A stretch of DNA of 64,000 nt from Streptomyces sp. RFCAC02. GTDB taxonomy: Bacteria; Actinomycetota; Actinomycetes; Streptomycetales; Streptomycetaceae. The translations under genes were made by a program, and so were the position numbers. The DNA lies in contig NZ_SAUH01000001.1 in assembly GCF_004193175.1 (NCBI RefSeq), forward strand, positions 1,901,501 to 1,965,500, in the 5' to 3' direction. Below the pieces are notes generated by a model. It ran no database searches. It was given only the letters and a program-made list of their open reading frames with translations, and was not told where the DNA came from. The stretch's first letter is position 1. Every line of letters begins with the position of its first letter. This document shows, piece by piece, positions 42,523-55,284 of this stretch.

Positions 42523-44025
42523 GTGACGCACCCGTCCACCACGCCGCCGGCGCACGCGCCGGGCGGCGCGCCGCCCGGGATTCCGGGCGCGCGGACACCC
42601 GGCCGCGAGCCGGCCGCGGGCGGGACAGCACCGCCCGCGGCGGTCCCGCCCCGCCGGGCCGCCGCGTGGCGCGAGGCCGCGGCCCGCCTGCGCCGTGCCG
42701 CGCGCACCGAGCCCGGCAGGCTGCGGGCCGTCGGCGCCCTGCTCGCCGGGCTGCTGCTGGCGTTCGGCGCGGTGACGGCGTACCAGGTCCAGGACCGCAG
42801 CGCGGCCGCCGACACCGTCCGGCGCACGAGCCAGCCGCTCAGCACCATCGCCGCCGAGATCTACCGCAGCCTCGCGGACGCCAACACGACGGCGGTGAAC
42901 GGCTTCCTGGCCGGCGACGGCGAGACGGCCGCCACGCGCACCGCGTACCGGCGCGACATCGCCGAGGCCGCGGGCGCCCTCGCGAGGGCGGCGTCCGACA
43001 CCTCGACGTCGGCCGAGTCCGAGCGGTACATCGCCTGCCTGAGCCGCGGACTGCCCGTCTACTCGGGCCTCGTGGAGGCCGCCCGCGCGAACAACCGCCA
43101 GCGCCTGCCCCTCGGCGGCGCGTACCTGCGGTACGCCGACGACCTGATGCAGCGCGGCGTCCCGACGGCCCTCGCCGCCGACACCGGAGCGGCCCCGGAC
43201 TGCGACGCCGACGGCGACGGCACCGACGACGGCCTGCTGCCGACGGCCGAGGCGCTGTACCGGCTGGAGACGGCCAGGTTCCGCGACGACCTCGCCGACG
43301 CGGGCAGCCGCCCGTGGGCCGCGCTCGCGGTGGGCGGCGCGGCCGTCGTCGTCCTGGTGTGGGCGCAGCGCCGCCATTACCTCCGCACGAACCGCGTGCT
43401 GAACCCCGGGCTGCTCGCCGCCACGGCGACCACCGCCGTGCTGCTGCTGTGGCTCGCCGGCGCGCAGACCCTCTCGCGGGCGGCGCACGACGACATACGG
43501 CAGGGTCCGGCGCTGTCCCTGCCCACGCTGAACGACGCGCGGATCGCGGCCCTCAAGGCGCACGGCGACGAGAGCCTCGCCCTGGTGGCGCGGGGCGGCA
43601 GCGACGTGTTCGAGGACAGCTACCGGGAGGCCGTCCGCGAACTCGGCGGCGCGGACAACGGGCTGCTGGCGCAGGCGGCGGGCCTCGCGGGCGACGAGGC
43701 CCGCGCGCACATCACGGCCGCCGCCGACGCCACGGAGACCTGGCGGACGCGGCACAACCTGTCGCAGGCGGCGGAGCGCGAGGGTGACTACGACGGCGCC
43801 GTCGCGTTCGTCATCGGTGCGGAGGAGTCCACGCAGGAGGCGTTCCACGCGGTGGACACGGCCCTCGGGGAGGCGGTGGCGGCCGAGCAGGACCGCTTCG
43901 ACGCGGCGGCCGACCGTGCCCGCCGTTCCCTGACGGGCCTGGCCGCGGGCGCCGGCGTGCTCGGCGTCCTCGGCACGGCGGCCGCGCTGAGCGGCATGGG
44001 CCGCCGTCTGTCGGAGTACCGGTGA
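42523..44025 (+). CDS. glnX: GlnX-like four-helix membrane sensor protein
   Basis: 500 residues from GTG 42523, preceded by a GAGGGGGAGGGG ribosome binding site. Four transmembrane helices at about 68-88, 264-281, 297-315 and 470-490 create two large extracytoplasmic helical domains (about 175 and 150 residues) that look like four-helix-bundle chemoreceptor sensors (VRRTSQPLSTIAAEIYRSLADANT). No HAMP or signalling domain follows. The first loop has an EF-hand-like acidic stretch DCDADGDGTDDG and two Cys. In mycobacteria GlnX passes the GlnH ligand state to PknG; identical gene order here supports the name. Confidence 0.8.
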   Translation: MTHPSTTPPAHAPGGAPPGIPGARTPGREPAAGGTAPPAAVPPRRAAAWREAAARLRRAARTEPGRLRAVGALLAGLLLAFGAVTAYQVQDRSAAADTVRRTSQPLSTIAAEIYRSLADANTTAVNGFLAGDGETAATRTAYRRDIAEAAGALARAASDTSTSAESERYIACLSRGLPVYSGLVEAARANNRQRLPLGGAYLRYADDLMQRGVPTALAADTGAAPDCDADGDGTDDGLLPTAEALYRLETARFRDDLADAGSRPWAALAVGGAAVVVLVWAQRRHYLRTNRVLNPGLLAATATTAVLLLWLAGAQTLSRAAHDDIRQGPALSLPTLNDARIAALKAHGDESLALVARGGSDVFEDSYREAVRELGGADNGLLAQAAGLAGDEARAHITAAADATETWRTRHNLSQAAEREGDYDGAVAFVIGAEESTQEAFHAVDTALGEAVAAEQDRFDAAADRARRSLTGLAAGAGVLGVLGTAAALSGMGRRLSEYR

Positions 44026-44038
44026 GGAGGGGGACCCC

Positions 44039-45211
44039 ATGCGCCGCTTGAACGCGGGCCGGACGGATCGCACGCACGGCACCGAGGGCACCGACCGTGG
44101 GGAGCGCGGCCGGCCGCGGTGGCGGACCGTCCTGCTGTCCGCCACGTGTCTCGGGCTGGCGTGCGCCGCCGTGCTGACGGCGCTGGTCGCCACGGACGGC
44201 GGGTCCGGCGGCACCGAGCCGCGGGCCGGCCGGCCGCAGGCCGCCGGGGGCACGGACACGGACGTCCTCGCCGCCGGGGACGGCTGCGGCGGCAACGACC
44301 CGGCCCACCCCGAGGCCAGTGAACCGGCGGCCGAGAACGCCGGGCTCGCCGTCCGCGAGATCCAGGAGCGGGGCAAGCTGATCGTCGGCATCGACGTCAA
44401 CAGCTACCTGTGGGGTTACCGCGACCCGTCGTCGGGCCGCATCATGGGCTTCGACATCGACCTGGTGCAGGCGATCGCCGCGAGCATCCTCGGGACCGAC
44501 GATCCGGCCGTCACCTATCTCGCGATCCCGACGAACCAGCGCGAGGAGGCCATCCTCGAGGGCACCGTCGACATGGTGGTGCGGACGATGTCCATCACCT
44601 GCACGCGCCGCGAGAACGGCATCGACTTCTCCACCGCCTACTTCAGCACGGGCCAGCAGATGCTGGTCCCCGCCGGCTCGCCCGTCACCGGCTTCGACGG
44701 GACGCTGCAGGGCCGGCGGGTGTGCGTCGCCGCCGGCTCGTCGGCGGCGGGGCTGTTCGGCGTCGCGGACGAGGGCGCCGGGATCGTGGACGTGCCCGAC
44801 GGCACCGCCGTCGAGGGCACGGACTTCGCGAGCGAGGACCTGTCCGCCCTGGTGGTGCCGAACCACCTCGACTGCCTCGTCCGCCTCCAGCTCGGCGAGG
44901 CCGACGCGCTGGTGACCGACCAGGCCCTGGCGCTCGGGCACATCGCGCAGGACCGCGGGATGCGGATGGTGGGCCAGCCGCTCGGCCGGGAGTACTACGG
45001 CGTGGCCATGGCGCGCGGCAAGAACGACCTCGTCGGGTGGGTCAACTCCGTGCTGGAGGAGTACCGGGCGGGCGGCTCGGCCAGTGACTGGCGCGCGGCC
45101 TACGACACCTGGCTCGCCGACGCGGTGGGGCAGGGCACGCGGCGCGACGGCGAGCGGGCCGAGGTCCCCGACTTCCCGTCCACGCCGCCCGACCCGCTCT
45201 ACCGCGAGTGA
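44039..45211 (+). CDS. glnH: GlnH-like glutamate/aspartate-binding protein
   Basis: 390 residues. An N-terminal membrane segment (TVLLSATCLGLACAAVLTALVA, about 30-51) lacks a proper lipobox (GLAC), so it may be a signal anchor. The substrate-binding domain from about 105 has LIVGIDVNSYLWGYRDPSSGRIMGFDIDLVQAIA, VDMVVRTMSITCTRRE and ADALVTDQALALGH, typical of family-3 amino-acid-binding proteins. No amino-acid permease or ATPase is present, so it probably acts as a sensor rather than a transporter part. It starts 13 bases after the GlnX stop. Confidence 0.88.
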   Translation: MRRLNAGRTDRTHGTEGTDRGERGRPRWRTVLLSATCLGLACAAVLTALVATDGGSGGTEPRAGRPQAAGGTDTDVLAAGDGCGGNDPAHPEASEPAAENAGLAVREIQERGKLIVGIDVNSYLWGYRDPSSGRIMGFDIDLVQAIAASILGTDDPAVTYLAIPTNQREEAILEGTVDMVVRTMSITCTRRENGIDFSTAYFSTGQQMLVPAGSPVTGFDGTLQGRRVCVAAGSSAAGLFGVADEGAGIVDVPDGTAVEGTDFASEDLSALVVPNHLDCLVRLQLGEADALVTDQALALGHIAQDRGMRMVGQPLGREYYGVAMARGKNDLVGWVNSVLEEYRAGGSASDWRAAYDTWLADAVGQGTRRDGERAEVPDFPSTPPDPLYRE

Positions 45212-45296
45212 CCGGCGCCCGGCCAGGGGAGGCACACGGCGAGCACCACCGCAGCACCGCACCACTGCGATCCGATGATGTGATGAGGGGAGAACC

Positions 45297-46586
45297 ATGG
45301 CCCCGGACTCCGGCGACGGCCACGTACTGAGCCGTGAGGAGGCCGACCGCGCCCTGGCGCGGCTGGGCGCCGAGCACGAGGCGATCGAGTCGTCCCTGCT
45401 CGCCCTCCAGGACCACGCCGGCCGCAGGCTGCTGGAGGGCGCCGACCTGGCGGGCGAGACGCGGGCGCGCTGGGCGGACGCCGAGGAGACGGTCACCCGG
45501 CTGTGGCAGTACTTCGACATCGCCAGCGCCGCGCTGCACGCCGCGCGCCGGATCCGGGCGCGGCGCAGGTCGCCGTCCCGCGACGACCTGCGCGAGCTGA
45601 CGGCGCTGCTGACCGGCGACTGCCACGCCGTCCCCGGCATGCCGGGGCGCCTGGTGGAACGCCTCGGCTGGCCCGACCTGGTCGCTCGCATGAACGACGG
45701 CTACGCCCGCGTCCTCGACATGGTGATCGCCGCCGACGCCGTGTGGTCGGCGCTGCCCGCCCGGATAGACCTCCTGGCCGCCGAGCAGCAACGGCTGCGC
45801 GCCCTGGCGCACTCGGTCGGCGTGCGCCCCGGCGCGCACCCGGCGGGCGACGAACTGGCCCGTGTCACCGACGACCTGACCGGGCTGCGCGCCGAGGTGA
45901 TCGCCGACCCGCTGGCGTTCTGGATCGCGGACGGCGGCAGCAGCGCGCCGGGCGGCGGGCGGCCCGACACCGCGCGCTACGACCGGGCGGCCCGCGCGCT
46001 GGACGACATCCGGCGCGAGGTGGACGCGGTCATCGGGGTCCGCAAGGACGCCGAGGAGCGGCTGATCCGGCTGCGTGACGTGCTGTCGCGGGCCGACCGC
46101 ACGCTCGCCGAGGCGCGGCTCGCGCGCGGCGAGGTGCTGGCCAAGATCGCGGCGTCCGAGGTGCCCGCGGTGTCGGGTCCCGCGACCGTGCTGCACGAAC
46201 AGCTCGCGGCGGCCGCCGACTACCGGCGCCGTTCGCTGTGGCACCGGCTGTCCCCGCTGCTGGACGCGCTGGAGGAGCGGGCCGACGAGGAGCTGGAGCG
46301 CGCCCGCGCCTCGCTCGCCGCGGTGACCGCGCCGCTCGCCGTCCGCGCCGAGCTGCGGGGCCGGCTGGACGCGTACCGGGCGAAGGCGGCGCGGTCCGGG
46401 AAGGCGGAGGAGCCGATCCTGATCGAGCGGTACGACGCGGCGCGCCGCCTGCTGTGGACGGCGCCGTGCGACCTGCGGGCCGCGGAGTACGCGGTGCTGC
46501 GGTACCAGGAGGCGACGGCCGAGGCACTGTTCCCCGGCCCGGTCGGCGGGGTCGGGAGCCGCGTCGAGGGAGGTGCGGGCGGATGA
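45297..46586 (+). CDS. Coiled-coil protein of unknown function in the pknG operon
   Basis: 429 residues, soluble, almost entirely helical and rich in Ala, Arg and Glu. Long heptad-like stretches include EEADRALARLGAEHEAIESSLLALQDH, ARALDDIRREVDAVIGVRKDAEERLIRLRDVL and LEERADEELERARASLAAV. No known catalytic motif. GAGGGGAGA precedes ATG 45297, and the stop overlaps the pknG start (ATGA), so its level is coupled to the kinase. A scaffold or adaptor between GlnX/GlnH and PknG is my inference from position only. Confidence 0.78.
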   Translation: MAPDSGDGHVLSREEADRALARLGAEHEAIESSLLALQDHAGRRLLEGADLAGETRARWADAEETVTRLWQYFDIASAALHAARRIRARRRSPSRDDLRELTALLTGDCHAVPGMPGRLVERLGWPDLVARMNDGYARVLDMVIAADAVWSALPARIDLLAAEQQRLRALAHSVGVRPGAHPAGDELARVTDDLTGLRAEVIADPLAFWIADGGSSAPGGGRPDTARYDRAARALDDIRREVDAVIGVRKDAEERLIRLRDVLSRADRTLAEARLARGEVLAKIAASEVPAVSGPATVLHEQLAAAADYRRRSLWHRLSPLLDALEERADEELERARASLAAVTAPLAVRAELRGRLDAYRAKAARSGKAEEPILIERYDAARRLLWTAPCDLRAAEYAVLRYQEATAEALFPGPVGGVGSRVEGGAGG

Positions 46587-49180
46587 ACGAGGGAACGGCG
46601 TGCCAGCGGCCCGGCTGCTCCGGGCAGTACGAGGACGTGGGCGGCGGCGCGCTCTACTGCGACGTGTGCGGCCTGGCCCCCGTGGTGTCGCCCGCGGGCA
46701 TGATCGGCCCGACGACGACCGGGACGACGGGCCGCGCCGGCGCGGGACGGGCGTCCGGCGGGGACTCCGGCGCTTCGGGCGGGGACTCCGGCGGGGCCTC
46801 GGGCCGGGACCCGGACTCCGGCGCCGGCTCGGGTCCCGGCTCCGGTTCGGGACCCGCCTCGGGTCCGACCTCCCGGTCGCAGTACTCGCGGCGTTCGGTG
46901 TCGGGGCGGCTGGCGCGTGCGCGGACCGGCGCCCTGCCCACGCGCTCGGTGCTGGTGCGCTCCCAGCGCTCGGCGAGCGGCGCGTCCGCGCGGTCGCGGC
47001 TCGGCGCCGGCCTGGTGACGGTGCCGCCGGTCCCCCGGCCCGAGCCGCTGACCGCCGTCCTGGAGAACCCGGAGGTGCCCGAGCGCAAGCGGTTCTGCGG
47101 CAACCCGGAGTGCGGCGCGCCCGTGGGCCGTTCGCGCGGATCGCGCCGCGGCCGCACCGAGGGGTTCTGCACCAAGTGCGGCCACCCCTACTCGTTCGTG
47201 CCGAAGCTCCAGCCGGGCGACGTCGTGAAGGACCAGTACGAGATCGCCGGGTGCATCGCGCACGGCGGCATGGGCTGGATCTACCTCGCGATCGACCTGG
47301 CCGTCTCCCGCCGCTGGGTGGTGCTCAAGGGCCTGCTGGACGCGGGCGACGAGGACGCGCGGCAGGCCGCGATCTCGGAGCGGCGCTTCCTCGCCGAGAT
47401 AGAGCACTCCAGCATCGTGCGCATCTACAACTTCGTGGAGCACCTGGACCAGCGCACCGGCAGCGTGGACGGGTACATCGTCATGGAGTACGTCGGCGGC
47501 CGCTCCCTCAAGGACCTGGCCAACGACCGCCGCACGCCGGACGGGCGCCGCGACCCGATGCCGGTGGAGCAGGCGTGCGCGTACGGCATCGAGGCGCTCG
47601 AAGCCCTCGGCTACCTGCACAGCCGCAAGCTGCTCTACTGCGACTTCAAGGTGGACAACGCCATCCAGCAGGGCGACCAGCTCAAGCTGATCGACATGGG
47701 CGCGGTGCGGCGCGAGGACGACCGGCTCAGCCCGGTGTACGGGACGCCCGGCTTCCAGGCGCCCGAGGTGATCGAGATCGGTCCCTCCGTGGCGTCGGAC
47801 CTCTACACGGTGGCGCGGACGCTCGCCGTCCTCACGTTCGACTTCCAGGGCTACACCACCTTCTACGCCGACAGCCTGCCGGACCCGGAGCACGTGGACG
47901 TCTTCCGGGAGTACGAGTCGTTCTACCGGCTGCTGGTGCGGGCGACGGACCCGGACCCGTGGCGGCGGTTCTCGTCGGCGCAGGAGATGGCGGAGCAGCT
48001 CACGGGGGTGCTGCGGGAGATCGTCGCCACGCGGACGGGGCAGCCGCAGCCGGCGCTGTCCGCGCTGTTCGGCCCCGAACCGCGGGTCGTGGACACCGAG
48101 CTGGTGCCGCGCGCGGCGGACGGCGTCTCCACGCTGGGGGAACGCGCCGCCGGCCGCTGGTGGCGCGCGCCGCGGCCGCGGACCGCGCCGCCCGCGGGTC
48201 CCCTGCCGGCCGGCGGCGGACCCGCCCCGCGCACGGTCGTGCCGGACATGCGGCAGACCGTCCTCGCGCTGCCCGCGCCCCGCGTGGACCCGGACGACCC
48301 GAACGCCGGCTTCCTCGCCGGTCTGCTCGCCACGACCGCGCCCGCCGACCTGCTGCACGCCCTGGCGGGCGCACCGGCCGACTCGGTCGAGGTGCGGCTG
48401 CGGGAGCTGCGCGCCCGGCTCGGCATCCCGGGGGACGAGGCGCTGGCGACGGCGGTGGAGCGGATGACGGCGCTCGACGAGTCGTACGGCACCGACTGGC
48501 GCGTGGTCTGGTACCGGGGCCTCGTGGCCCTCGCGACGGGCGACTGGGAGACGGCGGCGCTGTCGTTCGACGCGGTGTACGACGCGTTCCCCGGCGAGGT
48601 GGCGCCGAAGCTGGCGCTCGCCGTGTGCGCCGAGGTGCTGGGCCAGCTCGACAACGCGGCCGACTACTACGCCCTCGTGTGGACGACCGATCCGAGCCAT
48701 GTGAGCGCCGGCTTCGGCCTGGCGCGGGTGCGCCTGGCCACCGGCAACCGGGCCGGCGCGGTGCGCGCCCTCGAGTCCGTGCCCGAGACCTCGGCGCACT
48801 GGACGGCGGCACGCGTGGCGGCCGTACGGGCTCGGCTGCGGCAGCGGGATCCGCGCGAGGACCTGCTGCCGGACCTGCTGGCGGCCGGCGCCGAGGTGGA
48901 TGGTCTGCGGGCCGCCGGTCTGGAACCATGGCTGGGCGAACAACTGTCCTGTGAAGTGCTGGGGTCCGCGCTCGACTGGGTACTGGCCGGTTCGGGCGGC
49001 CCGTCCCGGCCGGGAAGTGATCCTCCACGACGCCTGCTGGGCGGCCCGCTGGACGAGACCGGGATCAGGCTCGGCCTGGAACGGTCCTACCGACGGCTCG
49101 CCCGGCTGGCGCCGACCAGTGACGAACGGACCGAACTGGTGGAGGCGGCCAACCGCTTCCGCCCGAAAACATGGGTGTGA
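46583..49180 (+). CDS. pknG: PknG-type serine/threonine protein kinase
   Basis: 865 residues. First zinc ribbon CQRPGCSG...YCDVCG (residues about 7-30), a Ser/Gly linker, then a rubredoxin-like ribbon CGNPECGAP...CTKCGHPY. The kinase domain has the Gly loop AHGGMGWIY, Lys249 (VVLKGL), catalytic Asp354 in YCDFKVDN (Lys356, Asn359) and metal Asp371 in LIDMGAV (DMG for DFG; M. tuberculosis PknG has DLG). TPR-like helices fill the C-terminus (YRGLVALATGDWETAALSF). In mycobacteria PknG phosphorylates the FHA protein GarA to control glutamate metabolism. Coupled to the genes on both sides. Confidence 0.94.
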   Translation: MNEGTACQRPGCSGQYEDVGGGALYCDVCGLAPVVSPAGMIGPTTTGTTGRAGAGRASGGDSGASGGDSGGASGRDPDSGAGSGPGSGSGPASGPTSRSQYSRRSVSGRLARARTGALPTRSVLVRSQRSASGASARSRLGAGLVTVPPVPRPEPLTAVLENPEVPERKRFCGNPECGAPVGRSRGSRRGRTEGFCTKCGHPYSFVPKLQPGDVVKDQYEIAGCIAHGGMGWIYLAIDLAVSRRWVVLKGLLDAGDEDARQAAISERRFLAEIEHSSIVRIYNFVEHLDQRTGSVDGYIVMEYVGGRSLKDLANDRRTPDGRRDPMPVEQACAYGIEALEALGYLHSRKLLYCDFKVDNAIQQGDQLKLIDMGAVRREDDRLSPVYGTPGFQAPEVIEIGPSVASDLYTVARTLAVLTFDFQGYTTFYADSLPDPEHVDVFREYESFYRLLVRATDPDPWRRFSSAQEMAEQLTGVLREIVATRTGQPQPALSALFGPEPRVVDTELVPRAADGVSTLGERAAGRWWRAPRPRTAPPAGPLPAGGGPAPRTVVPDMRQTVLALPAPRVDPDDPNAGFLAGLLATTAPADLLHALAGAPADSVEVRLRELRARLGIPGDEALATAVERMTALDESYGTDWRVVWYRGLVALATGDWETAALSFDAVYDAFPGEVAPKLALAVCAEVLGQLDNAADYYALVWTTDPSHVSAGFGLARVRLATGNRAGAVRALESVPETSAHWTAARVAAVRARLRQRDPREDLLPDLLAAGAEVDGLRAAGLEPWLGEQLSCEVLGSALDWVLAGSGGPSRPGSDPPRRLLGGPLDETGIRLGLERSYRRLARLAPTSDERTELVEAANRFRPKTWV

Positions 49181-50834
49181 CGATGCCGCAGCTCGACCAA
49201 CTCTCCGCCTGCCCCGGCTGCGGGGAACCCCTGGAGGACGACGACCGCTTCTGCGGTGTCTGCGGCACGGACCTGCGGGTGACGCCCCCGACGGCGTACA
49301 CGCCCACCGAGCACGACTTCCGTATCCGGCCTCCCGCGCCGGCGGACGGCGGTCCGGGGTACGGCGCTCCGCCGCCACCGGCTGCCCCGCAGCCGCCCGC
49401 GCCTCCGGGCCCCGGGCAGCAGGCACCGCCCGCGCCCGCCTTCGGGACGGCCCCCCGGCACCCGGACCAGGGCCACGCCGCCCCCGGCCACCCGCAGGCC
49501 CCCGGCTACGGCGCCCCCGGCTCCGGACAGCAGCCGCCCGTGCCACCGGCGCCCGGCTACGGCGCCGCGCCCCCGGCACCCGGCCACGCGCCGGAGCCGC
49601 AGGCACCGGGCTACGGCGCGCCCGCCGCCGAACAGCGCCCGCCCGCGCCCCACCCGCCGGCACCGCCCGCCGGCACGGGACACCAGCCACCCCACCCCGC
49701 CACGCACAGGAACCGCAGGCGCCGGGCTACGGCGCGCCCGTCGCCGAACAGCGCCCGCCCGCGCCCCACCCGCCGGCCGCTCCCGACCCCGGCACCGCGC
49801 CCCCGGCGGCACCCCCCGCGCCGCCGCGCTGGGCCGACCCGCGGACCGGCCCCGTACCGCCGCCCGATCCGCGCGCCGCCCAGGCCTCGCCGCCGCCCCG
49901 CGAGGCACCGCGCCCGGCCTGCGTGCTCTGCGGCACCGGCCGGGTGGACGCCGACGGCTACTGCGCCGAGTGCGGCCGCGCCCAGCCCGCGGCCCGCGAC
50001 CACGTGGAGCGCGCCCTCGGCGGCGTCGCCGCCGTCAGCGACCTCGGCCGCAGGCACCACCGCAACGAGGACGCGTTCACCGTCTCCGCCACCGCCCTCC
50101 CGGACGGCTCGCCCGCCGTCATGGCGATCGTGTGCGACGGCGTGTCGTCCTCCACCCGGCCCGACGACGCCTCCGCCGCCGCGGCCGAGGCCGCCGTCGA
50201 AGCGCTGTCGTCCCTGCTGCCCCGGGGCGTCCCCGGGCCGCGCGCGATGAACGACGCGCTCGTGTCGGCCGCCGACGCGGTCAGCGCGCTCGCCGGGACG
50301 ACCGCGCCCGAGCCGGGCCGCAACTCCCCCGCCTGCACGATCGTCGGCGCCGTCGCGGCCGGCCGCCTGCTGACCGTGGGCTGGATCGGCGACAGCCGCG
50401 CCTACTGGGTGCCCGAGGAGCCCGGCGCGCCGGCCGCCCGCCTCACCGAGGACGACTCGTGGGCCGCCCAGATGGTGGCCGCCGGACTGCTGAGCGAGGC
50501 GGAGGCCATGAGCGACCACCGCGCCCACGCCATCACCGCCTGGCTCGGCGCCGACGCGGTCGAGATCGAGCCGCACACCGCCTCGTTCGAGCCGGACCGG
50601 CCGGGCGTCGTCATCGTCTGCACCGACGGCCTGTGGAACTACGCCGACGCCGCCGACGACATGGCGCGCCTGGTCCCCGCCGGCGCGCGGACCGCCCCGC
50701 TGGAGACGGCGCGCGGGCTCGTCAGGTACGCCCTGGAGTCCGGCGGCCACGACAACGTGACGGTGGCCGTCATCCCGTTCCCGACCCACCGGTCCGACGG
50801 CGCGGGCCCGCCCGGCGCCGCCGCGTCCGCCTGA
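49177..50834 (+). CDS. PP2C-type phosphatase with N-terminal zinc ribbon (apparent frameshift)
   Basis: The start GTG 49177 overlaps the pknG stop (GTGA). Frame one encodes CPGCGEP...RFCGVCG and a PG-rich linker with GYGAP and PAPHPP repeats. Near 49690-49702 the linker repeats continue in the -1 frame (HAQEPQAPGYGAPVAEQRPP), then a second ribbon CVLCGTG...YCAECG and a complete PP2C domain: RHHRNEDAF, VCDGVSSS, WIGDSRAYWV, CTDGLWNY and GGHDNVTV. Adding one base restores a single protein of about 550 residues. All metal-binding Asp residues are present, so the phosphatase was recently functional. It probably opposes PknG. Confidence 0.85.
49690..49702 (+). other. Apparent -1 frameshift site in the PP2C gene
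   Basis: Reading CACCCCGCCACGCACAGG, one G fewer than CACCCCGGCCACGCACAG would require. The upstream unit of the same linker (GHAPEPQAPGYGAPAAEQ) shows what the downstream copy should read. The single missing base lies in a GC-rich repeat prone to sequencing error. Confidence 0.75.
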
Positions 50835-50857
50835 CCGGCCGGGGGGGGAGCGATCGG

Positions 50858-52231
50858 ATGGCCGCGACCGGGCACGGACAGCCGTTCGGCGTCGAGGTGT
50901 TCCAGAACGAGTACCTGCCCGAGGGCGCGCACGAGGTGAACGCCGTGGTCACCGTCACGGCCACCGGCGGGGCCGCGGGCGCGGCGGCGGGCACGGGGCC
51001 GCCGGCGGCCGTCGTGATCCTGCTGGACACCTCGGGCTCCATGGCGTACCCGGAGACCAAGCTGCGGTACGCCCGCGAGGCGACGGCTGCGGCCATCGGG
51101 ACGCTGCCGGACGGCGTGGCGTTCGCCGTCGTCGCGGGCACCCACCGCGCCACCGAGATCTACCCGGGCGGCGGCGCCCTCGCCGTCGCCGGTGCCGGGA
51201 CCCGCGCCGGCGCCACCGCGGCGCTGCGGCGGCTGACCGCGGACGGCGGCACGGCCATCGGCACCTGGCTCACCCTCGCCGCCCGCCTCCTGGGCACGAC
51301 GACGGCGCCCGTCCGGCACGCGATCCTCCTCACCGACGGCCGCAACGAGCACGAGTCCCCGGACGACCTGAGCGCCGCGCTGACCGCCTGCGCCGGCCTC
51401 CTCACGTGCGACGCGCGCGGCGTCGGCACGGACTGGGAGGTCGCCGAGGTCACCGGGATCGCCGACGCCCTGCTCGGCACCGCCGACATCGTGGCGGGAC
51501 CCGAGGGCCTCGCGCGCGACTTCACCGCCATGATGACGGCCGCGACGGGCAAGGAGACCGGCGACGTCGCGCTGCGCGTGTGGACGCCGCGGGGCGCGTC
51601 CGTCCGGTTCCTGAAGCAGGTCGCGCCGTCCGTGTCCGACCTGACGGGCCGGCGCGCCGATGTGCCGCCCCGCGCCGGCGACTACCCCACCGGCTCGTGG
51701 GGTGCCGACGAGAGCCGCGACTACCACCTGTGCGTGGACGTCCCGGCGGCGGCGATCGGCGAGGAGATGCTCGCGGCGCGCGTCTCCCTGGTCCTGCGCG
51801 ACCCGGCGGCTCCCGCCGGGCCGCCCGCGACGGTGCTCGGCCAGGGCCTCGTCCGCGCCGTGTGGACGGACGACGTGACGGCCACCACGGGCATCAACCC
51901 GCATGTGGCGCACTACACGGGCCAGGCGGAGCTGGCCGAGCAGATCCGCGAGGGGCTGCGGCTGCGCGCGGCCGGTGACGTGTTCGGCGCGACCGCCCGC
52001 CTCGGCCGGGCCGTCCGCCTCGCCCACGCCTCGGGCAACGAGGCCACCGCGAAACTGCTGGCGGCGGTGGTGGACGTGGAGGACGCGGCGACGGGTACTG
52101 TTCGACTGAAGACCGCGGTCAGTCGAACCGATGAGATGACACTGGCCACACGCTCCACGCGGTCCGTCAGAGTGAAGAAGAAGTCGCACGACGCGAGAGA
52201 AGAAGCCGAGCCGAGCAGCGAAGCCGAGTGA
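50858..52231 (+). CDS. VWA-domain protein with Thr-rich basic tail
   Basis: 457 residues from ATG 50858 (GGGGGGGAG upstream). The von Willebrand A domain has an intact MIDAS: DTSGSM (Asp57, Ser59, Ser61), the Thr loop (TADGGTAIGTWL) and ILLTDGRNEH. No signal peptide, so cytoplasmic. A second beta-rich domain follows (DVALRVWTPRGASVRFLKQ), then helices LAEQIREGLRLRAAGDVFGATARLGRAV, and a tail DEMTLATRSTRSVRVKKKSH with several Thr/Ser in a basic setting. Placed between phosphatase and FHA genes it is a candidate phospho-scaffold. Confidence 0.88.
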   Translation: MAATGHGQPFGVEVFQNEYLPEGAHEVNAVVTVTATGGAAGAAAGTGPPAAVVILLDTSGSMAYPETKLRYAREATAAAIGTLPDGVAFAVVAGTHRATEIYPGGGALAVAGAGTRAGATAALRRLTADGGTAIGTWLTLAARLLGTTTAPVRHAILLTDGRNEHESPDDLSAALTACAGLLTCDARGVGTDWEVAEVTGIADALLGTADIVAGPEGLARDFTAMMTAATGKETGDVALRVWTPRGASVRFLKQVAPSVSDLTGRRADVPPRAGDYPTGSWGADESRDYHLCVDVPAAAIGEEMLAARVSLVLRDPAAPAGPPATVLGQGLVRAVWTDDVTATTGINPHVAHYTGQAELAEQIREGLRLRAAGDVFGATARLGRAVRLAHASGNEATAKLLAAVVDVEDAATGTVRLKTAVSRTDEMTLATRSTRSVRVKKKSHDAREEAEPSSEAE

Positions 52232-52261
52232 CGACGACGCGACGTAAGGGGAGGCAGTCAC

Positions 52262-53436
52262 ATGCCGACTTGCCCGAACGGCCACCAGTCGGCGGCCGAT
52301 GACTGGTGCGAGGTGTGCGGGCACCGCATCCTCGCCGCCTCCGGGGGAATGCCCGCGCCGCCACCGCCGCCCGGCGGCGGGTACGGCGGCCCGCCCGCGC
52401 CGCCGCCACCCCCGTGGCCCGGCGCGCCGGGCGGCGGACACCAGCCGCCGCCCTACCCGGGCCAGCCGCAGCACGGTCAGCAGCCCCCGGGTCCGCCCCC
52501 GCACGTCCCCGGCCAGCACGGCCAGCCGGGTCAGCACGGCCAGCCGGGTCAGCACGGCCAGCACGGCGCGCCGTCCCCGTGGGGTGACCCGGCTCCCGCC
52601 ACCGCGCCGATGCCGCACATACCGCAGCCGGGCCGGCCGGGGGACGGACACGGCCCGGCGGGTGAGCGCTGTCCGCAGTGCGGCACGCCCCGCGAGGGGC
52701 AGGCGCCGTTCTGCGAGGAGTGCCGCTTCAACTTCCTCACCAACGCGCCCACCGCCTACATGCCGCCGGTGCCCTCCGGCGGCCGGCCGCCCGCGCACGG
52801 CGACTTCGGCGGCGCCGCCCCGTCCGCCGCGCCGCCGGCCGCTCCCCCGGCGGCACCGCCCGCCGCCCCGGCGGTTACCGGCCGAGCGGCGACTGGCCCC
52901 TGCCGCCCCCCGCCGGGCCGCAGGGCGGCGGCCCGCACGGCGGCGCCCCCCAGCCCGGCCACCAGCCGCCCCCGTGGCCCGGCGCGCCCTCGGCGCCCGG
53001 CGGCCCCGGCGGCCCGCCCGACCAGCGGTCCGGCACCTGGCACGTCTCGATCGGCACCGACGCCCAGTACTTCGCCGCGATGATGCGCCGCTCCGGCCCC
53101 GAGGCCGCGCAGCTCAGCCTGCCCGCGTACGCGCCGGACCAGCAGATGCCGCTGACCGGACCGCAGGTCACCATCGGCCGGCGCCGCCAGTCCACCGGCG
53201 AGTCGCCCGACATCGACCTGTCGCGTCCGCCGGAGGACCCGGGCGTCTCCCACCAGCACGCCGTCCTCGTCCAGCAGAACGACGGCGGCTGGGCCGTCAT
53301 CGACCAGGACTCGACCAACGGCACCACCGTCAACATGGCCGAGGACCCCATCCAGCCGTTCGTCCCTGTGCCGCTGAACGAGGGCGACCGCGTCCACATC
53401 GGCGCCTGGACCACCCTGACGCTGTACCGCAACTGA
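52262..53436 (+). CDS. FHA-domain protein with zinc ribbons (apparent frameshift)
   Basis: ATG 52262 follows AGGGGAGG. Frame one encodes a zinc ribbon (CPNGHQSAADDWCEVCG), a long Pro/Gly linker with QPGQHG repeats, and a second ribbon (CPQCGTPREGQAPFCEECRFNF). Around 52861-52870 the coherent sequence moves to the -1 frame: GGYRPSGDWPLPPP, then the FHA domain with VTIGRRRQSTGESPDIDL, GVSHQHAVLVQ, WAVIDQDSTNGTTVN and LNEGDRVHIGAWTTLTL. The phosphothreonine-binding Arg/Ser/Asn pattern is intact. One extra C in the CCCC run would restore a single protein of about 391 residues. Likely reader of PknG-dependent phosphorylation. Confidence 0.83.
52861..52870 (+). other. Apparent -1 frameshift site in the FHA gene
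   Basis: In CGCCGCCCCGGCGG one more C gives GCC GCC CCC GGC GGT TAC and joins the zinc-ribbon/linker frame to the FHA frame. Same direction and same kind of setting (GC-rich Pro linker) as the PP2C frameshift 3.2 kb upstream. Confidence 0.75.
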
Positions 53437-53479: not shown

Positions 53480-54214
53480 GTGACAGACGACATACCCGCG
53501 ATCGCGGTCGAAGGACTGCGCAAGCGGTACGGGGACGTGCAAGCCGTCGACGGCGTGACGTTCGAGGTGGGCCGTGGCGAGTTCTACGGCATCCTCGGAC
53601 CGAACGGCGCCGGCAAGACCACCACACTGGAGATTGTCGAGGGGCTGCGCGAGCCCGACGAGGGGACCGCCCGGCTCCTCGGCGAACCCTCCTGGCCGCG
53701 CAACCCCGCGCTCCTGCGCCGGATCGGGGTGCAGCTCCAGGCGTCGGCCTTCTTCGACAAGCTGACCGCCCGCGAGCAGATCCACACGTTCGCCGCCCTC
53801 TACGGCGTCACGCCGGAGCGGGCCGACGCCATGCTTGCGAGCGTCGGCCTCACCGAGAAGCGCGACGTGCGGGACGACAAGCTGTCCGGCGGCCAGGCGC
53901 AGCGGCTGTCCATCGCCTGCGCGCTGGTGCACGACCCCGAACTCGTCTTCCTCGACGAGCCGACGACCGGCCTCGACCCGCAGGCCCGGCGCAACCTGTG
54001 GGACCTCCTGCGCGGCATCAACTCGGCCGGCCGCACCGTGGTGCTCACCACCCACTACCTCGACGAGGCCCAGATTCTCTGCGACCGCGTCGCCATCATG
54101 GACGCCGGCCGCGTCCTGACCGTGGGCCGCCCCGCCGACCTGATCGAGCAGTACGGCGTCGCCTCGCTGGAGGACGTCTTCCTGCAGCTCACCGGACGGG
54201 AGTACCGCGAGTGA
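53480..54214 (+). CDS. ABC-2 type exporter, ATP-binding protein
   Basis: 244 residues from GTG 53480. Walker A GPNGAGKTTTLE, Q-loop VQLQASAFF, signature LSGGQAQRLS, Walker B LVFLDEPTTGLD and switch His in LTTHYLDEA are all present. The C-terminal [18 protein letters not shown] is typical of drug/antibiotic exporter ATPases (DrrA/NodI-like). It is coupled by GTGA to the permease gene. It follows the FHA gene by 43 bases with no terminator between, so it may belong to the same transcript; its substrate is unknown. Confidence 0.93.
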   Translation: MTDDIPAIAVEGLRKRYGDVQAVDGVTFEVGRGEFYGILGPNGAGKTTTLEIVEGLREPDEGTARLLGEPSWPRNPALLRRIGVQLQASAFFDKLTAREQIHTFAALYGVTPERADAMLASVGLTEKRDVRDDKLSGGQAQRLSIACALVHDPELVFLDEPTTGLDPQARRNLWDLLRGINSAGRTVVLTTHYLDEAQILCDRVAIMDAGRVLTVGRPADLIEQYGVASLEDVFLQLTGREYRE

Positions 54215-55284
54215 ACGTCACAGCCTTCCGCGCCCTGTCCCGCGCGATGCTGCGGGGCATGCTGCGCGACCGGACGGCGCTGTTCTTCACCGTGCTGTTC
54301 CCCCTGATGTTCCTGGCGCTGTTCGGGCTGCTGTTCCAGAACGACACGGGCGCCAAGGTCACCGTCGTGCAGGTCGGCGACGTGTCCGTGCTGGACGACA
54401 TGTCCGACGAGGCACTCGGCGCCCTGGGCGACGCGCTCACCCTGGAGAAGTCGGGCGACCGCGACGAGGCACTGAAGGACGTGCGCGAGGGCGAGGCCGA
54501 CGCCGTCCTCTGGGAGGACGAGGACGGGCGGATCGAGCTTCGCTACTCGATGGCCGACGCCACCCGCGCCGGGACGGTGCAGGGCCTCGTCCAGTCCCTC
54601 GTGCAGAGCGCCAACGTCGCCGCCACCGGCCAGGAGCCCGCGTACTCGCTGGCCACCGACAACGTCGAGGACGAGTCGGTGAAGCCCATCCAGTTCCTGA
54701 CGCCCGGCCTCCTCGGCTGGGCGGTGGCGACGGGCGCTGCGTACTCGTCCGCGTTCACGCTCGTCACCTGGCGCAAGAAGCGCATCCTGCGGCGGCTGTG
54801 GCTCGCGCCCGTCAGCCCGGCGTCCGTCGTCGGCGCGCGCCTGGGCGTCAGCCTGGCGGTCGCGTTCGTCCAGTTCGGGATCTTCATCGCGATCGCCACG
54901 CTGCCCACCTACGGGCTCCAGCTCTCCGGGAACTGGTGGCTCGCGATACCCCTGGTGGCGTGCGGCACGCTCGCGTTCATGTCGATCGGTCTGCTCATCG
55001 GCGCCCTGGCCGGCTCCGAGGAGGCGGCCAACGGCGCGCTGCAGGTCGTCGTCCTGCCGATGGCGTTCCTGGCCGGCTCGTTCTTCCCGACCGACATGAT
55101 GCCGGGCTGGCTCGCGGCCGTCTCGCAGATCCTGCCGCTCAAGCACCTCAACGAGGCGATGATGGACGTCCTGTCGCGGGGCGGCGGCTGGGGCGACGCG
55201 CTCCCGACGATGGGCGGGCTGCTGCTCTTCACCGCCGTGCTGACGGCGATCGCCGCGCGGTTCTTCCGCTGGGACAACGCCTGA
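54211..55284 (+). CDS. ABC-2 type exporter, permease protein
   Basis: 357 residues from GTG 54211. An N-terminal helix ([20 protein letters not shown]) is followed by a large extracytoplasmic domain (about 45-165, acidic) and five C-terminal helices including [26 protein letters not shown], with the typical basic coupling loop, and [37 protein letters not shown]. This is the ABC2_membrane_3 topology of one-subunit-dimer exporters. A strong terminator follows at 55314. Cargo unknown. Confidence 0.92.

Follow-up and report, generated by a model that had tools for sequence, protein, structure and literature searches.

Positions 42523 to 53436 of a 64,000-nucleotide stretch of Streptomyces sp. 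RFCAC02 DNA (the whole stretch being called the window here) carry seven plus-strand genes in the order GlnX-GlnH-CC-PknG-PP2C-VWA-FHA, where CC denotes a coiled-coil protein. GlnX, GlnH, and PknG form a known sensor, which is coupled here to CC, a PP2C phosphatase, a VWA protein, and an FHA reader. This extended cluster is conserved well beyond Streptomyces, and its CC, PP2C, and FHA genes remain whole in loci that have lost the sensor and the kinase. On balance, we favor a reading of two linked modules, in which a sensor-kinase input would be joined to a CC-PP2C-FHA reset and read-out module that probably serves other kinases too.

Gene content of the cluster

An earlier note on this DNA had described seven consecutive plus-strand genes, for a ligand-binding protein without its own transporter, a four-helix membrane partner, PknG, a phosphatase, a VWA protein, an FHA reader, and a coiled-coil protein of no known family, and all seven proteins were found at 42523-53436, as follows.

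42523..44025, + strand: GlnX, membrane signal transducer with four hydrophobic segments (NF058618, hydropathy)
44039..45211, + strand: GlnH, membrane-anchored solute-binding protein (SBP_bac_3, hydropathy, structure 6h1u, pocket residues)
45297..46586, + strand: CC, helical and spectrin-repeat-like, belonging to no named family (no family match; AlphaFold2; proximity to PknG)
46583..49180, + strand: PknG, with N-terminal zinc ribbon, Ser/Arg-rich segment, rubredoxin, kinase, and TPR (Pfam PknG_rubred, Pkinase, PknG_TPR; structure 2pzi)
46601..46669, + strand: extra N-terminal zinc ribbon of PknG (pattern match)
49171..50834, + strand: PP2C phosphatase, with two zinc ribbons, Pro-rich linker, and catalytic domain (PF13672, PF00481)
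50858..52231, + strand: VWA protein with MIDAS motif and VWA_3_C (VWA_3 and VWA_3_C matches)
52262..53436, + strand: FHA reader, with two zinc ribbons, Pro-rich linker, and C-terminal FHA domain (58.4 bits)

The predicted identities held for GlnX, GlnH, PknG, PP2C, VWA, and FHA. GlnX scored 403 bits against NCBIfam NF058618 (cut-off 250), and its four hydrophobic segments agree with the four-helix partner; a tRNA-Leu called by ARAGORN within the start of its coding sequence (window 42570-42663) is probably false. GlnH has a single, N-terminal hydrophobic segment, its nearest solved structure is GlnH 6h1u, and the seven genes include no transporter gene. PknG matched structure 2pzi with an E value of 2e-167 and is the sole PknG_TPR match in the genome, just as the VWA protein is the only VWA_3 match. 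The PP2C protein scored 104.7 bits against the Stp1 model, under the cut-off of 230. The MIDAS motif of the VWA protein is complete, with DxSxS present in 69 of the 70 related VWA frames, and its T and D residues recognized by eye in the window protein. In the FHA protein, the FHA phosphate-binding pattern is kept in 59 of 62 relatives. A motif in its tail, TATSYTP, was considered as a PknG phosphosite and set aside, because it is retained (with S replaced by T) in two loci devoid of the kinase (L144 and L267; L, G, and f are our labels for loci, genomes, and families) and is therefore not tied to PknG.

The extra zinc ribbon of PknG is present in 79 of 80 related loci and in none of the 12 loci tagged minimal; by pattern, it occurs in 10 of 18 f17 loci and 6 of 16 f18 loci, and so is not universal in extended clusters. 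Upstream of the rubredoxin domain lies a Ser/Arg-rich segment (window 46870-46925), a possible autophosphorylation or docking site, of which an RRSVSGRLSR-type version is present in 74 of 80 relatives, the window copy ending in RLAR.

CC matched no Pfam or NCBIfam family above its cut-off. Its AlphaFold2 model has a predicted local distance difference test score of 89.8 and a predicted template modelling score of 0.73. A fold search of CC gave no match at E ≤ 0.001, EzrA (4uy3, 4uxv) having a Foldseek E value of 0.2. EzrA ranked first in a second look at folds, which does not decide the matter; the absence of other families among these matches carries no weight.

At three of the six junctions, the genes overlap or are at most 13 bases apart (GlnX-GlnH, 13 bases; CC-PknG, -4; PknG-PP2C, -10, or +2 with a later ATG), one fewer than the four previously counted, and the others are wider (GlnH-CC, 85 bases; PP2C-VWA, 23; VWA-FHA, 30). 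A promoter and terminator scan gave nothing useful. In both PP2C and FHA, a -1 shift in the Pro-rich linker divides the coding sequence between two frames, near 49.67-49.72 kb and 52.86-52.88 kb, respectively. Most relatives have whole frames: the PP2C catalytic domain and both zinc ribbons are read in a single frame in 66 of 73 related loci by a strict pattern (69 of 73 by a looser one), and the FHA domain and both ribbons of its protein in 59 of 62. Assembly errors or strain-specific lesions are therefore the probable cause of the breaks. Both are one-base breaks of the same sign (window 49660-49720 and 52860-52880) in a 6.1-Mb assembly of two contigs, and may be homopolymer errors.

Conservation and modular loss

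The gene-order comparison suggested in the earlier note found the cluster conserved. Among the 80 best named PknG loci, picked by PknG similarity and all labelled Streptomyces except for one metagenome-assembled genome and one labelled Microtetraspora, 60 carry the complete cluster in one constant order, 2 are without VWA, and in the remaining 18 a contig end interrupts the locus. Because 60 of these 80 loci are complete and collinear, the cluster is more than a chance arrangement. In the sister Streptomyces loci L003 and L006, FHA follows soon after PP2C, VWA was not found, and the other six genes are kept.

Since these loci had been chosen by PknG similarity, a class sample of 296 genomes was drawn as well and searched for PknG_TPR (E ≤ 1e-3) and CC (E ≤ 1e-5), with at most six candidates scored per genome. 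PknG_TPR was found in 101 genomes and CC in 69, of which 68 also have PknG_TPR, an overlap tallied by hand from both result lists. A single family, f4, accounts for 23 of the 33 genomes that have PknG_TPR but no CC. Further, 80 neighbourhoods, each selected for a PknG_TPR match and 26 of them from the genus Streptomyces, were fetched, and CC lies near PknG in 60 of the 80 after profile iteration (49 at the first pass). All seven genes were detected in 23 of the 26 Streptomyces neighbourhoods, although L119 CC and L127 PknG are each in two frames. Of the other three, L144 is decayed, and the L133 and L142 neighbourhoods are cut. The extended cluster also occurs in other actinomycete families, partly reordered: f17 loci follow the order CC-PknG-PP2C-VWA-FHA as far as they carry these genes, and GlnH stands downstream in 16 of the 18; in f26, f11, f42, and most f18 loci, GlnH and CC lie upstream. 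Judged by name, Nocardiopsis, Actinomadura, and Streptacidiphilus have relatives of CC as well. Some f18 genomes have further PknG copies beside reversed GlnH/GlnX matches (L194, L195, L196, and L197, two with VWA), which are paralogous sensors.

The published operon comprises three genes, GlnX-GlnH-PknG, in the available portions of PMC6069109, PMC9769921, and PMC8546545. In our data, this three-gene form is found mainly in one family, f4, which is probably Mycobacteriaceae, given its close match to the PknG_TPR model. Of the 24 f4 genomes that have PknG_TPR, 8 supplied nine loci, and eight of these loci are without CC, PP2C, VWA, and FHA by profile; GlnX and/or GlnH adjoin PknG in seven of these eight. 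The eighth, L160, has neither, perhaps because Streptomyces profiles miss divergent copies. One f46 locus, L145, is of the same minimal kind. In an unrooted PknG tree of 64 rows, built after thinning Streptomyces and removing the relic L144 and two short rows, the minimal f4 copies form one group (Shimodaira-Hasegawa-like approximate likelihood ratio support, 100), and the extended copy L163, from f4 genome G282, stands beside it (98). The rest of the tree consists mostly of extended loci, with the minimal L180, L194, and L195 placed elsewhere. Because the minimal f4 copies group while extended loci fill most of the tree, the simplest reading of these sequences would be that the three-gene operon is a reduced form.

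Natural losses divide the cluster in two. Within a sample of 392 Streptomyces genomes, 364 have PknG_TPR (E ≤ 1e-40) and 28 do not, and CC was found in 19 of the 21 genomes searched (20 of these 28, together with G277). Of the neighbourhoods in these 21, eight were read. In L269, L271, and L272, the contig runs out within PknG, whereas the other five (L144, L259, L267, L268, and L270) run past the place of PknG. In these five, GlnX, GlnH, and PknG are absent or relics, whereas the CC, PP2C, and FHA frames are whole, the NED and DNxT motifs of PP2C and the core motif of FHA being kept in all five; VWA is intact only in L268. A loss tree (102 rows, quick search) requires four independent losses, with L259 and L270 as sisters, and a single deletion cannot explain the pattern, as CC sits between GlnH and PknG. 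By the NG86 method, which is rough on very GC-rich codons, the ratio of nonsynonymous to synonymous substitution rates (dN/dS) of CC, PP2C, and FHA is 0.18-0.41 in kinase-less pairs, against 0.38-0.86 for the relics and 0.04-0.38 for the same three genes in six intact pairs (a seventh pair is identical and gives no value). GlnH is variable even in intact pairs (dN/dS, 0.23-0.56), so its ratio says little.

In f18, L263, L264, and L265 hold CC (broken in L263), PP2C, and VWA without a profile-found PknG, and FHA in two of the three (L265 being on a short contig). In L261 and L262, also of f18, CC, PP2C, VWA, and FHA flank a diverged kinase to which the PknG profile aligns only in part. The reverse case is seen in f4, with PknG beside GlnX and/or GlnH and the CC-PP2C-FHA module not detected. 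The joint loss of sensor and kinase with CC, PP2C, and FHA kept, together with this reverse case, therefore suggests two modules: (i) sensor-kinase and (ii) CC-PP2C-FHA, with VWA optional.

Proposed mechanism and alternatives

The earlier note had proposed a self-contained amino-acid relay with its own phosphatase, reader, and possible scaffold. The coupling of GlnX-GlnH-PknG to PP2C, VWA, FHA, and CC stands, and extends beyond Streptomyces; a single self-contained relay is not supported, since CC, PP2C, and FHA outlast the sensor in four lineages and part of the cluster thus seems to work without it. In the two-module reading, GlnH would bind an extracellular amino acid, GlnX would relay this across the membrane, and cytoplasmic PknG would be activated, by extension from experiments in mycobacteria and Corynebacterium. 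CC would be the probable scaffold that brings PP2C and the FHA adaptor together, VWA being a dispensable partner. Through its FHA domain, the adaptor may bind phospho-threonine on PknG or on shared substrates, from which PP2C would remove the phosphate. PknG would then feed a nutrient-dependent signal into a phosphatase-reader complex that is independent of it, and, as CC-PP2C-FHA is kept where PknG is gone, this module probably also acts on the substrates of other kinases. Among candidate substrates, GarA, encoded elsewhere in the genome, comes first.

An amino acid is the likely ligand, judging from the GlnH pocket. With residues numbered and ligand roles assigned as for M. tuberculosis GlnH, where Trp232 contacts the ligand side chain (available portion of PMC6069109), the window protein retains R147, T162, S164, R169, and D250, K161 is replaced by R, and W232 is replaced by H. 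Position 232 is Q in 23 of 25 Streptomyces rows (the others being one H and one gap) and Y in all 16 f17 rows, with W present only in f4 (7 of 8) and f46 (1 of 1). For Asp/Glu specificity, the amino-acid clamp is thus kept, and the Trp that meets the ligand side chain is replaced.

Several observations weigh against two modules of this kind. The EzrA-like match of CC falls within the range of common helical arrangements; PknG and PP2C occur without a profile-detectable CC in six loci of f17, f18, and f27 (L148, L168, L174, L178, L182, and L189); the dN/dS of the kept genes after kinase loss is mostly above that of intact pairs, so some relaxation is possible; and the L259-L270 lineage shows some erosion of its zinc ribbons, where L270 yielded just one of the two PP2C ribbons and L259 just one of the two FHA-protein ribbons.

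The alternative that survives best, although we consider it doubtful, is the ordinary GlnX-GlnH-PknG-GarA pathway, in which GarA would be the main output and the extra genes would only tune its phosphorylation. A GarA orthologue with the ETTS motif and an FHA domain lies elsewhere in the genome, scoring 188 bits against the OdhI model NF041660 (cut-off 200); the textbook output is therefore available, and the different output that the earlier note had suggested is no more than a possibility. The cluster FHA protein differs from GarA (27% identity over 95 residues). According to the available portion of PMC8546545, the FHA domain of OdhI is a phosphorylation-dependent docking site for the kinase, and by analogy the cluster FHA may dock its kinase likewise. 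Moreover, GarA carries a zinc ribbon of the kind found on PknG, PP2C, and FHA in all 23 genomes from extended-cluster families and in none of the 7 from f4 and f46 (36 genomes searched, loci obtained from 30, all read). As a mark of PknG-GarA pairing, however, this ribbon was rejected, since it is also present in 16 of the 19 readable genomes selected for lacking intact PknG (30 genomes searched, 29 matched; of the 29 best loci, 9 were unreadable and 1 was cut, and a second match, L258, was left out). Further, in the one f4 genome with the extended cluster (G282, L163), GarA is ribbonless although PknG, PP2C, and FHA all carry ribbons, and the extra PknG ribbon therefore goes with the cluster rather than with GarA.

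We regard as unlikely a closed relay in which PP2C and FHA only reset and read PknG substrates and the kinase-less loci are half-decayed pseudo-operons. Strict co-conservation in Streptomyces would suit it, as would the raised dN/dS and eroded ribbons just described; yet the same three genes survive four independent losses, with CC lying between two lost genes, and the sister decayed loci L270 and L259 have diverged (CC 83% identical) while their three kept genes hold dN/dS at 0.31-0.41. A TerY-P-like conflict or metal-stress switch of kinase, PP2C, VWA, and zinc ribbon that gained an amino-acid sensor is the least probable, for although the same three protein types occur with zinc ribbons in TerY-P triads (available portion of PMC11090510) and likewise in the kinase-PP2C-vWA sets of actinobacterial GAP1-N2 systems (available portion of PMC7159879), the kinase is near-universal in Streptomyces, its ribbons precede the kinase domain and its chain ends in TPR, and PADLOC gave only kinase-domain matches and one weak PP2C match among the matches listed (25 of 29), on which the anti-phage reading was also rejected.

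Returning to the two-module reading, we tentatively suggest that CC, PP2C, and FHA may form a phosphatase complex of ancient origin in actinomycetes that has so far gone undescribed, with a spectrin-like protein as its scaffold and zinc ribbons as its tags, and that GlnH-GlnX-PknG was plugged into it. The mycobacterial three-gene operon would then be a stripped-down remnant, and PknG signalling in most actinomycetes that have PknG would use a dedicated phosphatase and adaptor absent from the model organisms.

Directly 3' of FHA lies an ABC-2 exporter (window 53480-55284), with high identity only in the nearest relatives listed. As a part of the system, it was dropped: ATPase identity reaches 83-87% in L003, L004, and L006 but is ≤35% in the other named loci listed, and the permease was found in these three and 2 further loci.

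Comparison with known systems

Models of PknG rest on mycobacteria and Corynebacterium and their three-gene operon; if the larger form is usual in actinomycetes, such models leave out a phosphatase, a reader, and perhaps a scaffold. Among the papers listed on PknG with vWA, PP2C, FHA, and Streptomyces, no title or abstract opening describes the cluster, subscription papers being mostly outside that coverage. The natural losses reveal separable genes and offer a direct genetic test, and streptomycetes are tractable antibiotic producers, in which a nutrient-to-phosphatase switch could bear on central metabolism and production.

The closest known system is the GlnH-GlnX-PknG-GarA/OdhI pathway, with which the cluster shares GlnX, GlnH, and the PknG domains (rubredoxin and TPR), the genome supplying the GarA orthologue. 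It differs by (i) the addition of CC, PP2C, VWA, and FHA, (ii) the extra N-terminal zinc ribbon of PknG, and (iii) the Trp232 position, which is His in the window and Gln in most Streptomyces rows. EzrA has spectrin-like repeats that CC may resemble; there is no match to a sequence family, and the resemblance may be one of common helical arrangement.

The TerY-P triad, in the available portion of PMC11090510, likewise has a Ser/Thr kinase, a PP2C, and a MIDAS VWA in one operon, with zinc ribbons, but the ribbon is at the C terminus of the TerY-P kinase, where PknG has its TPR and neither a zinc ribbon nor an OB fold; moreover, the cluster adds a membrane sensor, FHA, and CC. In the GAP1-N2 sets, as described in the available portion of PMC7159879, the kinase is often ribboned and linked to PP2C and a stand-alone vWA, whereas our cluster has a sensor module. 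No GAP1 gene was seen among the window proteins run against Pfam, although no search aimed at GAP1 was made. The threonine-phosphorylation pathway of type VI secretion consists of PpkA, PppA, and Fha. PpkA is a kinase-vWA protein, according to the available portion of PMC1262709. That pathway shares kinase, PP2C, FHA, and vWA parts with the cluster but holds its vWA within the PpkA kinase chain, and the cluster FHA protein is not of the TagH/Fha family (TIGR03354, 34 bits; cut-off 120).

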